From the NCBI GenBank assembly GCA_903856085.1, contig CAIOAT010000013.1, positions 1-39,429 on the forward strand: a stretch of 39,429 nucleotides of DNA, in the 5' to 3' direction. This DNA comes from Candidatus Omnitrophota bacterium. Lineage in GTDB: Bacteria; Omnitrophota; Omnitrophia; Omnitrophales; Aquincolibacteriaceae. Below are positions 11,024-23,781 of the stretch, one piece after another. The notes under the pieces were generated by a model that ran no database searches, was not told the DNA's origin, and saw only the letters and a program-made list of their open reading frames with translations. Position 1 is the stretch's first letter, and every line of letters begins with the position of its first letter. The position numbers were made by a program, and so were the translations under genes.

Positions 11024-11953
11024 TTAATTCTCTTGGACAAGGATCGTAAAGATCTTGCGGGTTGGAACCGTTTTGGGCTCCCAAGGCCGTTCATAGACAA
11101 AATCAACTTTAGTTTCACCCGAAGTCACGGCTTTGAATTTATAAGCCTCTTCACCGGGCGCGCCCGGCATCATTTTCTGAGAAGCAACATGCTCAGAACC
11201 CAAAAGCTTAACGGTCTGCTGATCTTCCGGCAGGGTCATCTTCCAGCGAAATCCGGTCGAGGGATTGCTGGCTAAAACAATTGAAAATTCTTCACTGGGC
11301 CGAACCTTGATAGGAACACCAGGATCCCGAAAAACCAAGGGCTGGCTCCCCGCCGGCACCGCAAGATCTGACACGACAGCGGGAGACATTTTATTCATTG
11401 CAACCGGCGGCACTGGGGTTTGAGCGAGCGCTTGAGAAGTGGCTCCTGCGACCGGAGGCGGCGCACTTTTTTTCATTTCGTCAGGGACAATAACGTTCAT
11501 CGTAACCGGATCGCTCCAAAGCGGTTCCGCGACATCGCCGTCCTCGCTCATCTGCTTGAATCCGAGCCGAAAAATCACCGGTTCTGTTTTATCATTTTTG
11601 GGAATGTAGAGAATGACGTTTTTCGCATAAACATCGCCGGGCTGAAGCGTGATGTCTTCGAGGGTGTTTTCGTTACAAGTCCAGGATTGGATAAACACCC
11701 CGGCATTGTCCGTCACCCAATGTTTTTCATAGGAGCAAGTGTTGCTCCAAAAATCAACCGAGGTGTCGGAGCTCGAGTTTGTGACCTGCGCATGGACAAG
11801 GAACATCATACCGCCCTTCACGGAGTTCTGGTCGGGAAGCGCCTGGATCTTGAGCAGCGAATCTTCAGCCCGAACGCTCGTGCCGAAGAAACAAAGACAG
11901 GAAACAATAAGAAAAAGAAGCGCGACGGAAAAGAGAAGCGGGGTCTTTTTCAT
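11024..11953 (-). CDS. Secreted chagasin-type (I42) protease inhibitor with a second inhibitor-like domain
   Basis: A 309-residue exported protein. The signal peptide ends at about 'VRA-ED' (residue 29). The C-terminal domain, about residues 208-309, carries the three chagasin loops: N230-PSTGF235 (the NPTTG motif), a Gly/Pro loop around 263-268, and R289-P-W291 (RPW/RPF motif). These loops block papain-like cysteine proteases in known members. The N-terminal domain, about 35-155, has 'FLVHAQVTNSSSD...VDFW', 'DNAGVFIQSW' and 'ITLQPGDVY', which resembles the BsuPI proteinase-inhibitor fold; this part is less certain. C73 and C93 may form a disulfide. A Pro/Ala linker (163-206) joins the two. 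It starts eight bases after the KTSC gene. Confidence 0.85.
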   Translation of the reverse strand: MKKTPLLFSVALLFLIVSCLCFFGTSVRAEDSLLKIQALPDQNSVKGGMMFLVHAQVTNSSSDTSVDFWSNTCSYEKHWVTDNAGVFIQSWTCNENTLEDITLQPGDVYAKNVILYIPKNDKTEPVIFRLGFKQMSEDGDVAEPLWSDPVTMNVIVPDEMKKSAPPPVAGATSQALAQTPVPPVAMNKMSPAVVSDLAVPAGSQPLVFRDPGVPIKVRPSEEFSIVLASNPSTGFRWKMTLPEDQQTVKLLGSEHVASQKMMPGAPGEEAYKFKAVTSGETKVDFVYERPWEPKTVPTRKIFTILVQEN

Positions 11954-11961
11954 CGCGTAGG

Positions 11962-12186
11962 TCAGTTAACCTTCACAAAAGAATACTGGACCTTGATATG
12001 CTTCTGAAAGAAAGTCCCGTGCGAAGGTGCGGCCATCAGTCCGTGATAAATGCTTTCGGGAACGTCGTGATAGCGATACACACCGCCTGCGCGAAACACA
12101 ACCTCCAAGATCGCTGTCGCAGCATCATAACCGATCAACGCGAGATCGCGCGACCTTACGGGTTTTATGTCCATTTCTGTCGCCAT
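11962..12186 (-). CDS. KTSC domain protein
   Basis: A 74-residue protein, MATEMDIKPV... It contains the KTSC domain (PF13619): 'SRDLALIGYDAATAILEVVF...GGVYRYHDVPESIYHGLMAAPSHGTFFQKHI'. The usual pattern is 'S-x-I-x-x-x-x-Y-D...L-x-V-x-F-x-x-G-x-x-Y-x-Y-x-x-V-P...G-x-x-F...I', and the final 'K-x-x-Y' is also present. The domain is found alone and fused to lysyl-tRNA synthetases; its role is not established. I chose the ATG at 12186 because AGAGGGGGG lies five bases upstream; the frame is open further upstream but only inside the previous gene. No signal peptide, so it should be cytoplasmic. Confidence 0.85.
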   Translation of the reverse strand: MATEMDIKPVRSRDLALIGYDAATAILEVVFRAGGVYRYHDVPESIYHGLMAAPSHGTFFQKHIKVQYSFVKVN

Positions 12187-12202
12187 CCGAGCCCCCCCTC
12201 TT

Positions 12203-12652
12203 TTAGATCTTGGAAACCTGCTTACGCTGGGCTTCCTCAAGTTCATGGTATTTTTCTATGATCACATCGCGGACCGGCCGAGAAGTTCCGTCCTGGAACT
12301 TCATAAGGATGATATTGTTGCCAGAAAGCGACCGGTAACAATGTTTCTTTGCCCACTGCTCCGGATTTTCATTGTGGTAATTCGTCATCAGATACACCAG
12401 CCCGACCGGGTACGCGAGCTGAGTCGTATATTCGATCCCCTCATACCAAACGGTGATCGGTGCGTCCCGGAAATAATTCAGGATACAGATCATCTTAGCA
12501 AGATCGTTATCGGGTTTTTTGAGGAATTCCTGATAGGCCTGGGACTTCGCCACAGGTTCAAGCCCCTCCGCACTCAAGGCCGCCGGAACTGTCCCTAAAA
12601 AAACAGCGTTCAAGGAAATTGATAAAACAACGCTCACCAAGAATTTCTTCAT
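12203..12652 (-). CDS. Small exported protein, DUF5329-like
   Basis: A 149-residue protein with a clear signal peptide, cleaved at about 'ALSA-EG' (residue 28), so it should be periplasmic. The mature part has 'NDLAKMICILNYFRDAPITVWYEGIEYT', a helical middle 'YLMTNYHNENPEQWAKKHC' and 'GNNIILMKFQDGTSRPVRDVI'. This order (short helix with a strand, HL-type helix, 'G-x-x-Y-x-I-x-F-x-D-G') recalls the DUF5329 family, but I hold that loosely. Two cysteines (in 'MICIL' and 'KHCYR') could form a disulfide. The KTSC gene follows 16 bases later and the chagasin-type inhibitor after that, so the three may form an operon. Confidence 0.75.
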   Translation of the reverse strand: MKKFLVSVVLSISLNAVFLGTVPAALSAEGLEPVAKSQAYQEFLKKPDNDLAKMICILNYFRDAPITVWYEGIEYTTQLAYPVGLVYLMTNYHNENPEQWAKKHCYRSLSGNNIILMKFQDGTSRPVRDVIIEKYHELEEAQRKQVSKI

Positions 12653-13064: not shown

Positions 13065-13463
13065 CTAGGCCGTTTCGTCAAAGCCCCAATTGGCGTGCAA
13101 GAAATATTTTTTGATCTCTGACTTGTGCTCCTTCAGCTGAAATTGAAAATTCGCAATCCCTCCCTGGGGCAGATGGTCCGGCTCGGTCGGAACACTGGTC
13201 CCTAAAAGAGGGACCTGGTTCTTATCAAAGATCACCAGCTGGGCGCGGATATGCTTTATGGAATGGCCGATATTGTTGATGACAATGCCCTGGAGGGATG
13301 CGCCTTCAGCTTCGTTGAAGTGGGTGCTCGCGCCTTTGATAATCACTTCGCGCGGCAGCTTCTGAAAATTCTCAATCTCTGGAAAGGATTCTATCCCCAT
13401 AGCCTCGCTCATGGCGTTCCCGTTCTCGACGCATGTTCTGTCATTCAAAACGAGAACTGTCAT
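13065..13463 (-). CDS. Conserved hypothetical protein with FxLYD-like beta domain
   Basis: A 132-residue protein without signal peptide. Residues 36-127 look like one beta-sandwich: 'REVIIKGASTHFNEAEGASLQGIVINN', 'KHIRAQLVIFDKNQVPLLGTS' and 'LPQGGIANFQFQLKEHKSEIKKY'. The pattern of a strand with 'G-x-I-x-N', a strand with 'V-x-x-x-F-D-x-x-x', then 'L-x-P-G-x-x-x-x-F' is that of FxLYD-type domains, usually found in exported proteins. I chose the ATG at 13463, with AGGAA just upstream; an ATG at 13412 would drop 17 residues. A large nested palindrome lies just upstream at 13480-13532. Function unknown. Confidence 0.65.
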   Translation of the reverse strand: MTVLVLNDRTCVENGNAMSEAMGIESFPEIENFQKLPREVIIKGASTHFNEAEGASLQGIVINNIGHSIKHIRAQLVIFDKNQVPLLGTSVPTEPDHLPQGGIANFQFQLKEHKSEIKKYFLHANWGFDETA

Positions 13464-13618: not shown

Positions 13619-15082
13619 TCACAGGGTTGGAACAGACGGAATCCCCTTCTCCGTCTCAGGAACCAGGCTTTCCAGGAACTGTTCGAATTCATCTTCCAAA
13701 GCGAGATAGGGCACGGGTTTAAGCCCCGTGATCCGCTCAACCGCATCCAAAGTCCTGAGATCGAATGGATCGCACATCGCGATCCTCACCAACCCTTCAG
13801 AAACTCCGATGGGGACCACGCGATGATGGAAGATGAATTCCGCGTTAAAAAGATGAAAGATCGCCGGGTCCGGGGTCCACCCCTTCAGACTGAAATAAGG
13901 AACCTTGAGCTTCTTTTCAAGCATCCTGCCCACATCTTGGCTTGAAATGAGATTCATATCGATCAGGGTCTGGCCAAGTCGATGGCCGGTCTGGAGATGC
14001 TGCTTAAGAGCCTCGCCAAGCTGCTCTTCGGTGATCAGGCCGGAACTCACAAGAACCTGGCCCAGAGGGTCCGCGCGCTTTTTAGGCTTGGCGGGTTTGA
14101 TCTCCGGCTCCAGAATATGGACCGCATCATCCAGTTTCTTGATCGGGGACGAACGACGGTCTTGGAGATAATGGCTCCCCGGCTGGCTCTTGAGGAACGT
14201 CTTGACCTCCGCGGCATCCTGCGCAATCTCACGGAGATTCACGTAATTCCGGTAAAGATTGGTGCAGCCGGCGACCGAGCAGGACATGAGGGGAAAATTC
14301 TCCATCTTGCCGCGCCGGTTCTCTACGCGGATGAATCCCGCATCCCGGTCCGTCCTGTTGTAATAGGTCGGAATAATCCGGTCAAAATCATCGATAAATT
14401 GGCGTGCGAAAACCTCTTCAAGTTCCGCCGGAAGCACCACGATGAAATCGTCCCCGCCGATATGCCCGATGAAGCACTCCCCGTCACGCGCCACGGCGTG
14501 GCTGGTCGTCACAAGAAGCCGGGCAGTCTGAAGGATAGCCTCATCCCCTTTCTGAAAACTATAATGATCGTTGAACGCCTTGAAGTTATTGATATCCATA
14601 TACAGAACCGAGAATTTTTCCCCCGCCTGGATCTTCTTCGATACGATCTTCTCGATCGCATGATTGCCCGGAAGATGTGTGAGCGCGTTGGCCTCCACAC
14701 GCTCCATCGTCTTGGCAATATTAAGATTCACGCGCAGCTGCAGCACGAGCGGACTGAAAGGCCTGACGAGGAAATCGTCGAAACCTTTTTCATGACCGAG
14801 CATGAGTTCTGTCAGCTTGTGCTCCTCCGTGATCATGATGACCGGGACCGACATGAGATGGGAACGGGAACGGATGACCTGGATGAGCATCTTGCCGTTG
14901 ACGGGCTCCAGTTCGCTTGAAAGTAGGATCAGGTCCAGAACCTCGCGATCCAGAAATCTCAAGGCCTGGCTGCTTTTTGAAGCCTCAAAGACTTTGTGGT
15001 GGCGGGAATGAAGGCGCATCAGGATCATTTCCCGAGTCGCATCGTCTTTTTCAGCGACCAGGATCCGCTTTCCCTTGATCAT
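13619..15082 (-). CDS. Degenerate receiver - GGDEF - MshEN signalling protein
   Basis: A 487-residue cytoplasmic protein of three domains. Residues 4-120 are a receiver domain whose phospho-acceptor position is Ser55 ('DLILLSSELEPVNGK') and whose usual Lys is Arg107, so it is probably not phosphorylated. Residues about 125-300 are a GGDEF domain with 'LYMDINNFKAFNDHYSFQKGDE' and the active-site loop G209-G-D-D-F213, a variant of GGDEF. Residues 339-475 are an MshEN domain: 'LGQVLVSSGLITEEQLGEAL' and 'HRLGQTLIDMNLISSQDV' form the paired c-di-GMP-binding motif known from type II secretion/pilus ATPases. The protein may make or sense c-di-GMP. It overlaps panB by four bases (ATGA). Confidence 0.9.
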   Translation of the reverse strand: MIKGKRILVAEKDDATREMILMRLHSRHHKVFEASKSSQALRFLDREVLDLILLSSELEPVNGKMLIQVIRSRSHLMSVPVIMITEEHKLTELMLGHEKGFDDFLVRPFSPLVLQLRVNLNIAKTMERVEANALTHLPGNHAIEKIVSKKIQAGEKFSVLYMDINNFKAFNDHYSFQKGDEAILQTARLLVTTSHAVARDGECFIGHIGGDDFIVVLPAELEEVFARQFIDDFDRIIPTYYNRTDRDAGFIRVENRRGKMENFPLMSCSVAGCTNLYRNYVNLREIAQDAAEVKTFLKSQPGSHYLQDRRSSPIKKLDDAVHILEPEIKPAKPKKRADPLGQVLVSSGLITEEQLGEALKQHLQTGHRLGQTLIDMNLISSQDVGRMLEKKLKVPYFSLKGWTPDPAIFHLFNAEFIFHHRVVPIGVSEGLVRIAMCDPFDLRTLDAVERITGLKPVPYLALEDEFEQFLESLVPETEKGIPSVPTL

Positions 15083-15870
15083 GAGAAACTTTCCTTCTTG
15101 GAAGGGAATTTCTTCTTTTGAACATCACGGCAATAATTAACGGCCGCTTTTTTCATGATTTCTTCAAGGTTCGTGTAGCGCCGGACAAAACGAGGGCTCA
15201 CCCCCGAGCGGATGCCCAACAGGTCCTGAAATACCAGCACCTGCCCATCGGTCGCGGGTCCCGCACCGATCCCGATCGTCGGACATCGCACGGCTTGGGT
15301 GATCTCAGCGGCAAGTTTTGACGGCACACATTCCAGCACGATCGCGAACGCCCCCATCCGGTCCAGCAATTTCGCATCCTCCAGGATCATTTCAGCTTCG
15401 CTCGGATCCTTTCCGTAAACGCGGTATTTTCCATCTCCGACGCTTTGCGGCAACATGCCGACATGCCCCATCACCGAAATGCCTTCGGTCACAAGTCTTT
15501 GGATTTGAGCGTGGATTTTCGCACCACCTTCGAGCTTCACGGCATCGGCCCCAGCCTCTCGAACCAAACGTTGCGCGTTCTTGAACGCCAGCTCAGGATC
15601 GTTATAGGAATGGATCGGCATGTCCGCGACCACCAGCGCGCGCTTCACGCCCTTGACGACCGCCGCGGTGTGATAAAGCATGTGTTCGATCGTCATGCCA
15701 AGCGTATTCTCATGGCCCAAAAGCACCATACCGACCGAATCGCCGACCATAACAACATCCACGCCCGCCCCATCCGCAATTCTTGCGCTCGGATAGTCGT
15801 AGAGACTGAGCGAGACGATCTTCTCGCCAGCCTGCTTCTTTGAATAGATGGTTTGAGGTGTGTGTTTCAT
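15079..15870 (-). CDS. panB: 3-methyl-2-oxobutanoate hydroxymethyltransferase
   Basis: A 263-residue cytoplasmic enzyme that transfers a hydroxymethyl group from methylene-THF to ketoisovalerate, the first step of pantothenate and coenzyme A synthesis. Family motifs are present in order: 'SLSLYDYPSARIADGAGVDV' then 'VMVGDSVGMVLLGHENTLG', 'VVADMPIHSY' (metal-binding Asp), 'GADAVKLEGG', 'GHVGMLPQSV', 'AIVLECVPSKLA' (catalytic Glu) and 'IGIGAGPATDGQVLVFQDLLG'. Length is normal. The ATG at 15870 is preceded by GGGAG, which belongs to a repeat element at 15876-15950. It follows folD-fchA, which make and use the same methylene-THF cofactor. Confidence 0.96.
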   Translation of the reverse strand: MKHTPQTIYSKKQAGEKIVSLSLYDYPSARIADGAGVDVVMVGDSVGMVLLGHENTLGMTIEHMLYHTAAVVKGVKRALVVADMPIHSYNDPELAFKNAQRLVREAGADAVKLEGGAKIHAQIQRLVTEGISVMGHVGMLPQSVGDGKYRVYGKDPSEAEMILEDAKLLDRMGAFAIVLECVPSKLAAEITQAVRCPTIGIGAGPATDGQVLVFQDLLGIRSGVSPRFVRRYTNLEEIMKKAAVNYCRDVQKKKFPSKKESFS

Positions 15871-15952: not shown

Positions 15953-16810
15953 TCATTTCATCTGCCACTCATACGCGATGATGAGATTTTCCATGAGCAT
16001 GGTCACGGTAAGCGGCCCGACACCTCCAGGAACCGGCGTGATAAAACCGGCTTTTTTGACCGCTTCGTCAAATTCGACATCGCCCTGAAGCTTTCCGTCA
16101 ACCTCGGTGGTACCGACATCGATCACGACAGCGCCTTGCTTGATCCAGGCACCTTTCACAAGACCGGGCTTCCCCGAACAGGCCACCACGATTTCGGCAG
16201 CCCCGACAATCTTTTTCATATCTTCATCGGTGGTGCCGGTATTGCAAACAAGAGTCGTCACGCGCGCCTCACCCAGCAGAAGCTGCAACGGCCTTCCAAC
16301 AATAGCGCTCTGCCCGACGATCGCCGCCTTTTTTCCTCGAAGCATGATTCCGCTTGCTTTAATGAGCGTGTAGGCCGCAAACGCCGTGGGCGGGATCAGT
16401 TTCCCGCGCCTCAGGACGATCAACCCGAGACTGGTGGGATGAACGCCTTCGACATCCTTTTTGGGATCCATGGCCAGTAGAACCTTGTCGGAATTAATCC
16501 CCTCGGGAAGCGGCATAGAAATAAAAAGCCCGTGAACCGTTTTATCATCGCTGAGCTCCCGAACCTTCTGGAGCAGGGCATTCTCCCCTTTCACTTGATC
16601 CGGCATAATGCGCCTAAAATCAATGCCGAGTTTCGCCGCAAGTTTTTCCTGGCTGTTAATGTACCAGACCGCGGACGGATCTTCACTTGTCTGGATCGCA
16701 ACTAACGATGGCCTGGGAAGTCCCGCTCCCGCAAAGGATCCTATCTTCGCGACGATCTTTTCCTGCAGTCCCGCTGCGATTACTTTTCCTTCAAGTCTTT
16801 TTGCTTCCAC
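15953..16810 (-). CDS. folD: FolD-type methylene-THF dehydrogenase lacking the cyclohydrolase lysine
   Basis: A 285-residue cytoplasmic enzyme of one-carbon metabolism. FolD normally oxidises methylene-THF to methenyl-THF and hydrolyses it to formyl-THF. Family motifs: 'SAVWYINSQEKLAAKLGIDF', 'VHGLFISMPLPEGINSDK', 'DVEGVHPTSLGL', the Rossmann 'KKAAIVGQSAIVGRPLQLLL' and 'ITPVPGGVGPLTVTMLMENL'. In the YxxxK motif the Lys essential for the cyclohydrolase step is Gln (codon 16649-16651); the Gln of 'VQLPLP' is Ser and the Asp of 'DVDG' is Glu. It may therefore be only a dehydrogenase. I chose GTG at 16810, one base after the fchA stop, with GGGAG five bases upstream; a GTG at 16837 lies inside fchA without a ribosome site. 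Confidence 0.93.
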   Translation of the reverse strand: MEAKRLEGKVIAAGLQEKIVAKIGSFAGAGLPRPSLVAIQTSEDPSAVWYINSQEKLAAKLGIDFRRIMPDQVKGENALLQKVRELSDDKTVHGLFISMPLPEGINSDKVLLAMDPKKDVEGVHPTSLGLIVLRRGKLIPPTAFAAYTLIKASGIMLRGKKAAIVGQSAIVGRPLQLLLGEARVTTLVCNTGTTDEDMKKIVGAAEIVVACSGKPGLVKGAWIKQGAVVIDVGTTEVDGKLQGDVEFDEAVKKAGFITPVPGGVGPLTVTMLMENLIIAYEWQMK

Positions 16811-16811
16811 T

Positions 16812-17417
16812 TTAGCTCCCTTTTGTGAAGCGGCCACGGAGTTCCGCCAAAGCTTTTTCGGCGCGCTCTTTCCGCTCTTTGTTTTTCATATAGACCACAT
16901 TGATATGCGCAGTGTGGAAAGCCCCTTCAAACGCGGCGGACAAAAGACCATCACTTACGATCAAATCGTTGGCGACCGCGCCCTTGACAAGGGTTTTCAT
17001 GTGTTCGTTCCATTCTTTCGCCATCACAAGGATCAGCGCGAGATCCGCCTGCAACCGGAACGCGTTCTGGAGCGCATCTTCCAATTTCTCGGGCCCCGCC
17101 CCCTCTTTGTAACAAGCCATCACTTCATCGTAGACCTGAGGATCAAGGGATACCACTTGAAGCGCATCCGCCCGGGTCTTCTCAAGAGAATCAACGATCT
17201 CCTGCATACACTTGCGGTTGGCTTCGTCCTGAAATTTTTGCTCGGGGAGAAGATCGGCCTTGGGTTTGCGCTTGAGCGCGATCCGCGCGACCATCTGCGT
17301 CAGAGCCATGCCCAGAGCTCCGGCATAAGCGGAGACGCTCCCCCCGCCCGGCACCGGCGCATCGCTTGCAAGTTTTTCCAGATAAGTTTCAAGACTAAGG
17401 TCAGAATATTTTTTCAT
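16812..17417 (-). CDS. fchA: Methenyl-THF cyclohydrolase / formimino-THF cyclodeaminase
   Basis: A 201-residue helical cytoplasmic protein of the FTCD_C family. It begins 'MKKYSDLSLETYLEKLASDA' followed by the family's glycine-rich loop 'PVPGGGSVSAYAGALGMALTQMVARI'. Later conserved parts are 'DADALQVVSLDPQVYDEVM'-like 'RADALQVVSLDPQ' and 'GAVANDLIVSDGLLSAAFEGA'. Members hydrolyse methenyl-THF to formyl-THF (FchA of methylotrophs) or deaminate formimino-THF in histidine breakdown. There is no histidine-degradation gene here, and the next gene is a folD that lacks cyclohydrolase residues, so the cyclohydrolase role is the better reading. A TATAAT promoter candidate lies about 100 bases upstream and the leader contains repeat copy B. 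Confidence 0.93.
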   Translation of the reverse strand: MKKYSDLSLETYLEKLASDAPVPGGGSVSAYAGALGMALTQMVARIALKRKPKADLLPEQKFQDEANRKCMQEIVDSLEKTRADALQVVSLDPQVYDEVMACYKEGAGPEKLEDALQNAFRLQADLALILVMAKEWNEHMKTLVKGAVANDLIVSDGLLSAAFEGAFHTAHINVVYMKNKERKERAEKALAELRGRFTKGS

Positions 17418-17571: not shown

Positions 17572-18087
17572 TTAGAAATCAATACCGGATTGGGCGAGAA
17601 CGCCTCGCTTAAAAGGATGCTTCACACATCTCATCTCGGTCACAAGGTCCGCCTGACGGATGATCGCCTGCGGCGCATCTCGACCAGTCAGGATCACGTG
17701 CTGGGTGGCCGGTCTCTTCTTGAGGGCTTTGATCACTTCAGCACTTTTGAGAAATTTATATTTTAAAGCGATATGGATCTCATCGAGGATGACCAGGCGA
17801 TATTTCGGATTCTTCAGAAGTTCGCCGCATTTTTTCCAAGCCCTTTGAACGGCTTTCCGGTTTTCCGCGCGCGTAGTCTCCCATGTAAACCCGCCGCCGA
17901 AACTCAATATCCTGAATAAAGAACCGAACTTTTTCAGAACCTTTTTTTCTCCCGCTCCCGGCTTGAAGAACTGGACAATCGCGACCCGTCCGTCGCGCCC
18001 GATCATCCTGAGTGCCGTCCCGAACGCCGCCGTGGTCTTCCCTTTACCGTCGCCTGTAAACACGATGACCCATCCTTTTTTATTCAT
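17572..18087 (-). CDS. cobO: Cob(I)alamin adenosyltransferase (CobA/CobO/BtuR type)
   Basis: A 171-residue cytoplasmic enzyme that adenosylates cob(I)alamin with ATP to make coenzyme B12. The P-loop is 'VIVFTGDGKGKTTAAFGTAL' (G12-T19), followed by 'RVAIVQFFKPG', 'YRLVILDEIHIALKYKFL' (Walker B-like) and 'HVILTGRDAPQAIIRQADLVTEM', all typical. I chose the ATG at 18087 because GGGGAG lies four bases before it; an ATG at 18099 would put that site inside the gene. It overlaps the btuD stop by eight bases. As the last gene of the riboswitch-controlled operon it turns imported corrinoid into the active cofactor. The ribosome site belongs to repeat copy C. Confidence 0.95.
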   Translation of the reverse strand: MNKKGWVIVFTGDGKGKTTAAFGTALRMIGRDGRVAIVQFFKPGAGEKKVLKKFGSLFRILSFGGGFTWETTRAENRKAVQRAWKKCGELLKNPKYRLVILDEIHIALKYKFLKSAEVIKALKKRPATQHVILTGRDAPQAIIRQADLVTEMRCVKHPFKRGVLAQSGIDF

Positions 18088-18874
18088 TTCTCTCCCCATA
18101 TGCCGTACGTCTTACGCCTTGAACGGTTTTCCACGGAACAATATAAAAAGCATCTTTGGTTCCATATTTCGCTTCGATATGATAACTTTTTTTGAGATTC
18201 TCAGGCGCAAGAACTTCCTCGGGCTTGCCCGATGCAAGCACCTTTCCCTGATGGAGCAGCACAAGCCGATGGCAAAAACGCGCGGCAAGCGTAAGGTCGT
18301 GCAACACCACGATCACTCCGTGCTCGGCGTCCGCGAAACGAGATAAAAGCTCCATCACTTGAAGCCCATGCGCCGGATCAAGCCCCTGAACGGGCTCATC
18401 GGCCAAAAGCACCGAAGGCTGGGTCGCAAGCGCACGGGCCAAAAGCACAAGATTCCGTTCGCCACCGGCCAGATGGTCAACAAAACGATCTTTCAGATGC
18501 GCGACATCCGTATCCTCCATGGCTTGAGCAATCGCTTTTTCATCTTCCGGACCCAGTTGCTCCCAAGGCATCAGATGCGGGATACGCCCCAACGAAACCA
18601 GCCGCTTTACACTGAGCGGCCAGTGGATGACTTGTCCCTGCGGCAAATAGGCGACTTTTTTTGCAACATGATCCTTTTTTCCATCCAGGATCTTGACGTT
18701 CCCAAACTCCGGCGTCAACTCGCCGATAAGCACTTTCAACAAAGTCGATTTGCCCGCGCCATTCGGTCCGATAAGCCCGAGGACCTCCCCCTTCCGGAGT
18801 TCGAGGTCCACATCCCGAAGGATCTTAAGACCGTCAAAGCTCACGCGAATCTTTTGAGCCTCGATCATTCTCAT
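18080..18874 (-). CDS. btuD: ABC transporter ATP-binding protein, corrinoid uptake
   Basis: A 264-residue ATPase of the FecE/BtuD group that drives import through the inner membrane. Walker A is 'GPNGAGKST' (36-44), Q-loop at Q79 in 'AYLPQGQVIHWPL', signature 'HLAGGERNLVLLARAL' (LAGGE, 135-139), Walker B 'VLLADEP' with D159 and E160, and the switch His192 in 'VVLHDLTLAARF'. It overlaps btuC by four bases (ATGA). The substrate is inferred as corrinoid from the riboswitch, receptor and cobO around it; by sequence alone iron-siderophore could not be excluded. Its last 13 or so residues, QGVRRTAYGERNE, are encoded by repeat copy C and are probably a late addition. Confidence 0.93.
   Translation of the reverse strand: MRMIEAQKIRVSFDGLKILRDVDLELRKGEVLGLIGPNGAGKSTLLKVLIGELTPEFGNVKILDGKKDHVAKKVAYLPQGQVIHWPLSVKRLVSLGRIPHLMPWEQLGPEDEKAIAQAMEDTDVAHLKDRFVDHLAGGERNLVLLARALATQPSVLLADEPVQGLDPAHGLQVMELLSRFADAEHGVIVVLHDLTLAARFCHRLVLLHQGKVLASGKPEEVLAPENLKKSYHIEAKYGTKDAFYIVPWKTVQGVRRTAYGERNE
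18092..18120. repeat. Degenerate repeat, copy C (half element), inside btuD end and before cobO
   Basis: Minus-strand AAGGCGTAAGACGTACGGCA matches copy A's plus-strand AAGGCGTAGGGTGTACGGTG at 15 of 20 positions, all differences being transitions. It encodes the last residues of BtuD (QGVRRTAYGERNE) and its edge supplies the GGGGAG ribosome site of cobO. No second arm is visible, so it is a half element. Confidence 0.5.
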
Positions 18875-23496: not shown

Positions 23497-23543
23497 GACC
23501 TGTCTCGACCTCTGCTCGGAGGCATGAATTGCGTTGATGATGA

Positions 23544-23781
23544 GATGACAGGTTGATATTCTGACTAGGTAAGTACAAGCCTACTTGCGAGCCTTCCCTT
23601 TCCTCGCGGAAAAGTGGCAATTCGCTTTCGTCCTTACCGACAGCGGCGGCACCGTGGAGTCCCTGCGAAATTCAGCAGGTCTCACTTCCCAACGCACTTA
23701 ATCTTCGATCAATCTTCACCGAGGATCAGTGCAGCACTGGTTCACTATAAAGCTTGATCGAAAACCAGGACGCCTGTCACC
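23544..23781 (-). promoter_or_regulatory. Cobalamin riboswitch aptamer
   Basis: Read on the minus strand, P1 is GGUGACAGG (23773-23781) paired with CCUGUCAUC (23544-23552), nine pairs with one wobble. Between them lie the conserved B12-element blocks in order: GGGAAGUGAG, GACUCCACGG..GCCGCUGU, GGUAAGG, GCCACU, GGGAAGGC and AGUCAGAAUAUCAACC (the B12 box). An extra stem CGAUCAA/UUGAUCG (23754-23760 with 23706-23712) closes a peripheral hairpin. The 3' strand of P1 can also pair with GACAGGU at 23498-23504 just before the terminator, giving a switch. It controls btuB, tonB, btuF, btuC, btuD and cobO; bound cobalamin should turn them off. Confidence 0.93.

Follow-up and report, generated by a model that had tools for sequence, protein, structure and literature searches.

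A conserved Omnitrophota fusion of a receiver lacking phosphorylation residues, a GGDDF domain and an altered MshEN pocket

What might a signalling protein do whose receiver lacks the residues for phosphorylation, whose GGDEF domain reads GGDDF in its loop, and whose C-terminus carries an MshEN domain without an ATPase? The question is raised by a gene on the reverse strand of contig CAIOAT010000013.1 from a Candidatus Omnitrophota bacterium (assembly GCA_903856085.1), a member of a little-studied and uncultured bacterial group, of which we analysed a stretch of 39,429 nucleotides, hereafter the window (coordinates in Table 1). As judged from its sequence and that of its relatives, the encoded protein, our query, is a real and conserved fusion in which a receiver without its phosphorylation residues precedes a GGDDF domain with the expected contact residues and an MshEN pocket that is at once changed and conserved. 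The chain combines known parts in an unusual way. Papers cited by accession were drawn on in part, and what is said of them refers to those parts.

An earlier, sequence-only reading of the window had proposed this domain order, with no ATPase, and all three domains score above their family cut-offs. Pfam places Response_reg (PF00072) at residues 7-118 (47.9 bits against a cut-off of 30.2), GGDEF at 133-220 (46.3 against 23.8) and MshEN (PF05157) at 393-476 (72.4 against 23.1), and NCBIfam NF053729, "cyclic di-GMP-binding, MshE-related", matches residues 339-390 (60.9 against 38); no T2SSE ATPase domain matched the fusion protein among Pfam families at E<=1. The C-terminus is thereby confirmed as MshEN, and the structural comparison agrees. 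In an AlphaFold2 model built from 77 sequences (mean predicted local distance difference test score 84.8, predicted template-modelling (TM) score 0.65), Foldseek matched the MshEN part to MshE with cyclic di-GMP (c-di-GMP) bound (5htl_B; 29% identity over 137 columns, root-mean-square deviation 3.9, TM-score 0.69 by target length) and to GSPII-A of Thermus PilF (31% identity, TM-score 0.55 by target length), and the receiver (REC)-GGDEF part to PleD and WspR-like chains. The fusion is not a chance product, since near-full-length homologs exist within the phylum down to about 32% identity; the closest named relative, L045 (MHFU01000015.1, Omnitrophica bacterium), is 94% identical.

Homologs were gathered by two genome searches and one scan, and 146 distinct rows were aligned after removal of 15 duplicates; the samples are non-random and contain near-copies. 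The counts that follow refer to receiver-bearing proteins, 67 fused and 69 unfused. Forty-three of the fused proteins have a full MshEN domain, namely 30 of the query's class (query included) and 13 of family f16, and 24 have only the N-terminal MshEN subdomain of 53 residues, which scored above the NCBIfam cut-off in all three cases tested. Four full-MshEN and three unfused proteins with too little receiver were left out, as were L120, L086 and L121, which are other GGDEF proteins; L074, L077 and L083, in which Pfam finds no MshEN, were classed as unfused.

A phosphorylatable receiver was defined by five residues: two acids at positions 11 and 12, Asp55, Thr or Ser at 85, and Lys107. On the window the query reads Glu11-Lys12, Ser55, Thr85 and Arg107 and so fails this definition, which upholds the earlier description of a receiver without its phospho-acceptor Asp and conserved Lys. 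The full set occurs in all 69 unfused proteins, in none of the 43 with full MshEN and in none of the 24 with the short form. The manner of loss varies: Asp55 is replaced by Ser, Ala or Gly in 29 of the 30 proteins of the query's class, Lys107 by Asn in 12 of the 13 remaining full-MshEN proteins, and the paired acids are incomplete in all 24 short forms. Position 107 is Lys in 27 members of the query's class (Arg in two, Glu in one), and only the query and its close relative L045 carry Arg, so Arg107 is private to two sequences and was rejected as a lineage feature. The receiver, predicted to be dead, is a lineage trait, with losses that differ by lineage. In the query's class it also diverges faster than the GGDEF domain, at a REC/GGDEF identity ratio of 0.75 (352 pairs at 50-70% GGDEF identity) against 1.03 in f16 (12 pairs), 1.01 in short forms (137) and 1.03 in unfused proteins (591), the pairs being non-independent throughout. 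D102, D103 and R117, which we take to lie on the usual alpha4-beta5-alpha5 dimer face of receivers, are invariant in the 67 fused proteins, and R23, R27 and Q115, where other residues prevail elsewhere, are invariant in the 30 of the class; this suggests that an interface has been retained or newly formed.

In a tree built from GGDEF columns only, every fused protein lies on one side of a single branch (Shimodaira-Hasegawa-like approximate likelihood ratio test 99), a topology that would fit a single origin of the fusion. Fusion and receiver loss share that branch and therefore represent one correlated event. The tree holds one change per trait and one independent pair (p = 1), and the notion that fusion repeatedly drove receiver loss is unsupported. 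In five f16 genomes an unfused receiver-GGDDF gene whose receiver is intact coexists with a fused one whose receiver is broken (L106/L178, L107/L179, L129/L172, L128/L173 and L124/L174).

The GGDDF loop, which the sequence-only reading had listed among altered active residues, is present as described but is hardly an alteration. Every one of the 136 homologs with a receiver has GGDD, the fifth residue being Phe in 135 of them and Tyr in the other, and the loop recurs with the motif LTxLPGN in proteobacterial EAL-CBS-GGDEF relatives in the alignment. We rejected the possibility that it is a defect of the query protein; given its presence in all of these homologs, GGDDF is a subfamily signature. 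The expected contact residues are equally constant, with Asp163, Lys168, Asn171, Asp172, Asp180 and Lys294 each found in 135 or 136 of the 136; among the fused proteins D163, N171, D172, GGDD and K294 occur in 67 of 67, and D180 and F213 in 66. Position 180 presumably corresponds to the Hypr selectivity site (cf. Ser348), and because it is Asp in 66 of the 67, Hypr-type synthesis of cyclic GMP-AMP is weakly disfavoured. By alignment columns, an RxxD inhibitory site (I-site) was found in none of the fused and in two of the 69 unfused proteins, the query reading DGEC there. The loop also fails the published definition of an active one, [G/A/S]G[D/E]E[F/Y] (PMC8835794). The literature on GGDDF proteins includes one active chimera of GSU1937 (PMC8835794) and PA3258, whose deletion alters biofilm structure (PMC9355167) and which showed apparent cyclase activity with its EAL domain disabled (PMC12900916).

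The MshEN pocket was compared, in the numbering of the MshEN consensus (PMC5013675), at four key positions, the first and last residues of each of two 24-residue motifs. Domains that bind c-di-GMP follow RLG...LxxxLxxQ in both motifs (PMC5013675), extended to (R/K/L)LG...Q (PMC11731258). The query fails both forms, with PLG...H362 in motif I and RLG...K391 in motif II. Three of its four key positions thus depart from the consensus, and two of these changes are shared by nearly every fused homolog: the first Arg of motif I is Pro339 in 66 of the 67, and its final Gln is His362 in 65 (Gln in one, Asn in one). Motif II opens with Arg or Lys in all 30 of the query's class and ends in Lys or Arg in 29 of them, compared with Gln in 13 of 13 f16 proteins and 21 of 24 short forms. 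Glycines 341 and 370 are invariant in the fused set. Compared by eye, the query also fails the looser motif given by Wang et al., [RKPN]hGxxhhxx[GAS]hhxxxxhxxxhxx[QNKRYWST] (PMC5013675), at the last position of motif I (His) and at position 10 of motif II (Asn377). With these residues replaced, binding of c-di-GMP cannot be assumed. Two GSPII domains of PilF offer a comparison. GSPII-B tolerates Leu at the first position (dissociation constant 2 nM), is weakened to 0.46-0.95 micromolar by a single Gln-to-Glu change and loses binding upon the double change (PMC11731258); GSPII-A, which has His and Arg in place of the two Gln and Ser in place of the second Arg, is a non-binder, partly for other structural reasons (PMC12002112). 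In the query, Pro may stack and phosphate could be contacted by His and Lys; alternatively, the pocket may serve another ligand. The subdomain is well kept: mean identity in the query's class is 0.625 for the MshEN N-subdomain and 0.626 for the GGDEF domain, and the columns that contact the ligand are less variable than sets of subdomain columns drawn at random, of which a fraction of 0 to 0.005 varied as little in eight tests. The query's own genome has six further MshEN domains, of which four end motif I in Gln and a fifth does so by eye; in L002 the motif is unrecognisable by eye.

The suggestion that one protein both makes and reads c-di-GMP, offered by the sequence-only reading, can stand as no more than a possibility, given a mixed record of GGDDF activity and three replaced key positions. 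Our preferred explanation, tentative and somewhat short of an even chance, is a GGDDF protein that works independently of phosphorylation, probably as a cyclase, under the control of MshEN. The receiver, judging by its lost residues, would no longer take phosphate and would probably act as a dimer scaffold, and the GGDDF domain, which keeps the residues expected for metal and guanine, would probably still convert GTP to c-di-GMP. Since that domain is without an RxxD inhibitory site, control would fall to MshEN at the C-terminus, whose altered pocket would sense a nucleotide, c-di-GMP or a relative, and feed back on the dimer. A bolder version, which we regard as a long shot, has the pocket re-tooled by Pro and His, and in the query's class Lys, for a non-canonical ligand that replaces the phospho-receiver as the input of an I-site-less GGDDF cyclase, such that one chain would make one nucleotide, tuned by another, and in this class be tied to a folD-panB operon.

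Several observations weigh against MshEN-controlled cyclase activity. Fusion and receiver loss are one event, and the link between them is statistically non-independent. RxxD is missing in 67 of the 69 unfused relatives too, and its absence is therefore not tied to MshEN. Some of the ligand-contact columns lie in the buried core, and conservation of these columns is therefore no proof of a ligand. The Pfam GGDEF match covers profile positions 5-91 of 161, leaving the later part of the domain outside, and the triphosphate-binding residues could not be mapped on the query. The GGDEF domains of FimX and LapD, which we take to be non-catalytic, score Z 19.6-19.8 against 21.5, with active cyclases among the matches; at scores this close, the fold match does not discriminate a cyclase from a non-catalytic GGDEF domain. 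The VIA-align rows of this comparison span mainly residues 4-314 and are uninformative on MshEN. His and Lys replace both Gln residues of the pocket, resembling the natural non-binder GSPII-A with its His and Arg (PMC12002112), and full-length GSU1937 and three of its four chimeras were inactive in E. coli (PMC8835794), where PA3258 is also cited as without an effect on c-di-GMP in earlier work.

A non-catalytic reader, in which the role of the GGDDF domain is confined to binding GTP or c-di-GMP and signalling to MshEN or a partner, like other degenerate GGDEF proteins, is a doubtful but serious alternative. It would accommodate a loop outside the active definition (PMC8835794), a fourth-position Asp fixed in all 136 homologs, and a GGDDF effect described as unknown for Bordetella DdpB (PMC12805831); conservation of the checked metal and guanine positions in 66 or 67 of the 67 fused proteins goes beyond what a pure scaffold would need, and two GGDDF proteins have shown some activity (PMC8835794, PMC12900916). 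It is unlikely that MshEN serves only to dock the GGDDF protein at the machinery where this domain usually sits, a type IV pilus or a type II secretion system, with no ligand sensing. The own genome does hold MshEN open reading frames (ORFs) of 570-601 amino acids, putatively PilB-like by look, yet the closer structure by TM-score is MshE with c-di-GMP, variation is lowest in the ligand-contact columns, metabolic genes lie upstream in the query's class, and 24 homologs retain only the N-terminal, ligand-binding subdomain. To the idea of a decaying relic, with loss of the receiver switch marking a protein drifting out of use, we give hardly any credence: the receiver does diverge faster in the query's class, but the 43 full-length members have open frames, mean identity in the class is 63% for GGDEF and for the N-terminal MshEN subdomain, R23, R27 and Q115 are fixed there, and the linkage to panB (below) is conserved.

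Known systems each share part of this design. Cyclases of the PleD and DgcR type likewise have a receiver followed by GGDEF and are the best Protein Data Bank matches over that part, but the query lacks their receiver residues, reads GGDDF where PleD has GGEEF, has no RxxD I-site and adds MshEN; it scores 82.1 bits against the PleD equivalog NF007135, far below the cut-off of 474, and 61.3 against the DgcR NCBIfam model (cut-off 500). The EAL-CBS-GGDDF proteins (PA3258, RapA homologs, Bordetella DdpB) share GGDDF, and relatives of the type of L098 (EAL, CBS and GGDEF by Pfam) share LTxLPGN, NNFKAFND and GHxGGDDF with the query; for PA3258 and DdpB, we infer that the likeness extends beyond GGDDF. 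The query has neither EAL nor CBS, with a receiver and MshEN in their place. With the MshEN/GSPII domains of MshE, PilB and Thermus PilF it has the fold and both motifs in common, and it departs from them in having no ATPase, Pro for the first Arg, His for the motif I Gln and Lys for the motif II Gln; the His, and a basic residue at the second place, are shared with the non-binder GSPII-A. Outside ATPases, Wang et al. (2016) describe MshEN with REC (Bd2402), HD-GYP, CheA and CheX; in the part of that paper drawn on, which does not cover the supplementary tables, no GGDEF partner is named (PMC5013675).

The sequence-only reading had considered that the architecture might be common and already characterised. 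It recurs within the phylum, with at least 47 of 384 sampled Omnitrophota genomes holding a match that extends at least to residue 471 (some lacking the start) and at least 290 holding some homolog at 1e-40. We found no characterisation of a receiver-GGDEF-MshEN protein in the literature searched, the supplementary tables of PMC5013675 not included, and a literature search for Omnitrophota and c-di-GMP gave no paper. The Elusimicrobia phylum has matches at 1e-50 in 69 of 149 genomes, none past residue 339 among the 84 matches listed, and in the phylum of the Chloroflexaceae record two of 151 genomes match, neither beyond residue 311. As far as searched, the fusion is seen in Omnitrophota only. 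One phylum thus holds three related forms, a GGDDF protein with an intact receiver, one with a broken receiver and a 53-residue MshEN tail, and one with a broken receiver and full MshEN, which makes a swap of phosphorylation for another input testable. The conserved non-consensus pocket raises the question of its ligand, and the widespread GGDDF subfamily that of catalysis. Downstream of the L019/L047 fusion gene, a second MshEN C-terminal stretch (G003:C67:3305-3472, residues 422-477, 75% identity) lies in an 88-codon frame and looks like a tail duplication.

The overlap of the fusion gene with panB, remarked on in the sequence-only reading, is real: the start of the fusion gene and the stop of panB share 4 bp in the junction ATGA, and a purine-rich, Shine-Dalgarno-like stretch precedes the ATG. 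Among 29 aligned relatives in the query's class, 27 have panB upstream of the fusion gene and on its strand, 26 of them within 90 bp and L054 at a gap of 1,264 bp; the other two, L103 (contig end) and L045, were not judged. In L045 tblastn gave no match to panB; the stretch is partly N, and the residues before the gene resemble the panB C-terminus by eye. In many class relatives folD precedes panB. The flanking DNA fetched for the other fused groups, about 3 kb at most, gave no match to panB. Rfam, at gathering score, placed no riboswitch near panB. Promoter-like sites numbered 1 against a shuffle mean of 2.9 (below), and terminator-like sites 9 against 5.8 with a standard deviation of 2.6 (slightly above).

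Table 1. Features of the fusion gene and its upstream neighbours in the window
Feature	Position	Strand	Basis
REC-GGDDF-MshEN protein, 487 aa from ATG	13619..15082	-	ORF, Pfam/NCBIfam
Receiver (REC) domain, residues 5-118, phosphorylation site predicted lost	14729..15070	-	Pfam, residue checks
Ser55 codon, phospho-acceptor Asp position	14918..14920	-	alignment to PleD
Arg107 codon, conserved Lys position	14762..14764	-	alignment
GGDEF domain, residues 130-312, LTxLPGN...GHIGGDDF subfamily	14147..14695	-	Pfam (133-220), alignments, model
GGDDF loop, residues 209-213	14444..14458	-	alignment, window check
MshEN N-terminal subdomain, residues 339-391, two 24-residue motifs (Pro339, His362, Arg368, Lys391)	13910..14068	-	NF053729
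MshEN C-terminal subdomain, residues 393-476	13655..13906	-	Pfam MshEN, Foldseek
panB, ketopantoate hydroxymethyltransferase, directly upstream of the fusion gene	15079..15870	-	Pfam Pantoate_transf, 342.7 bits
folD, methylene-tetrahydrofolate dehydrogenase/cyclohydrolase, upstream of panB	15953..16837	-	Pfam, synteny

Signalling by c-di-GMP is likely present in the query's genome, since its proteins include, with the query counted, seven matches to GGDEF, three to EAL, three to HD_5, seven to PilZ and seven to MshEN. A PAS histidine kinase (L013, 1492-3045, reverse strand) carries a GGDEF-like domain (45.5 bits) after its ATPase domain, with no GGDEF loop by eye. A stand-alone MshEN protein of 156 amino acids (L005, 1471-1941, reverse strand) adjoins an ORF resembling fumarate hydratase by eye, and a second short MshEN ORF (L007), of 151 amino acids, lies beside two larger MshEN ORFs.

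Elsewhere in the window, the one Rfam match is a Cobalamin riboswitch (RF00174) at 23534-23728 on the reverse strand (39.4 bits, cut-off 31.5), about 5 kb from cobO (17572-18099). Downstream of the fusion gene, on the same strand, an ORF of 132 amino acids (13065-13463) recurs in seven close relatives at 65-93% identity and has no Pfam match at E<=0.01. The reverse strand further encodes a KTSC protein (11962-12246, 78.2 bits) and a protein whose C-terminus carries a chagasin-like inhibitor domain (11024-11953; I42, 76.8 bits).
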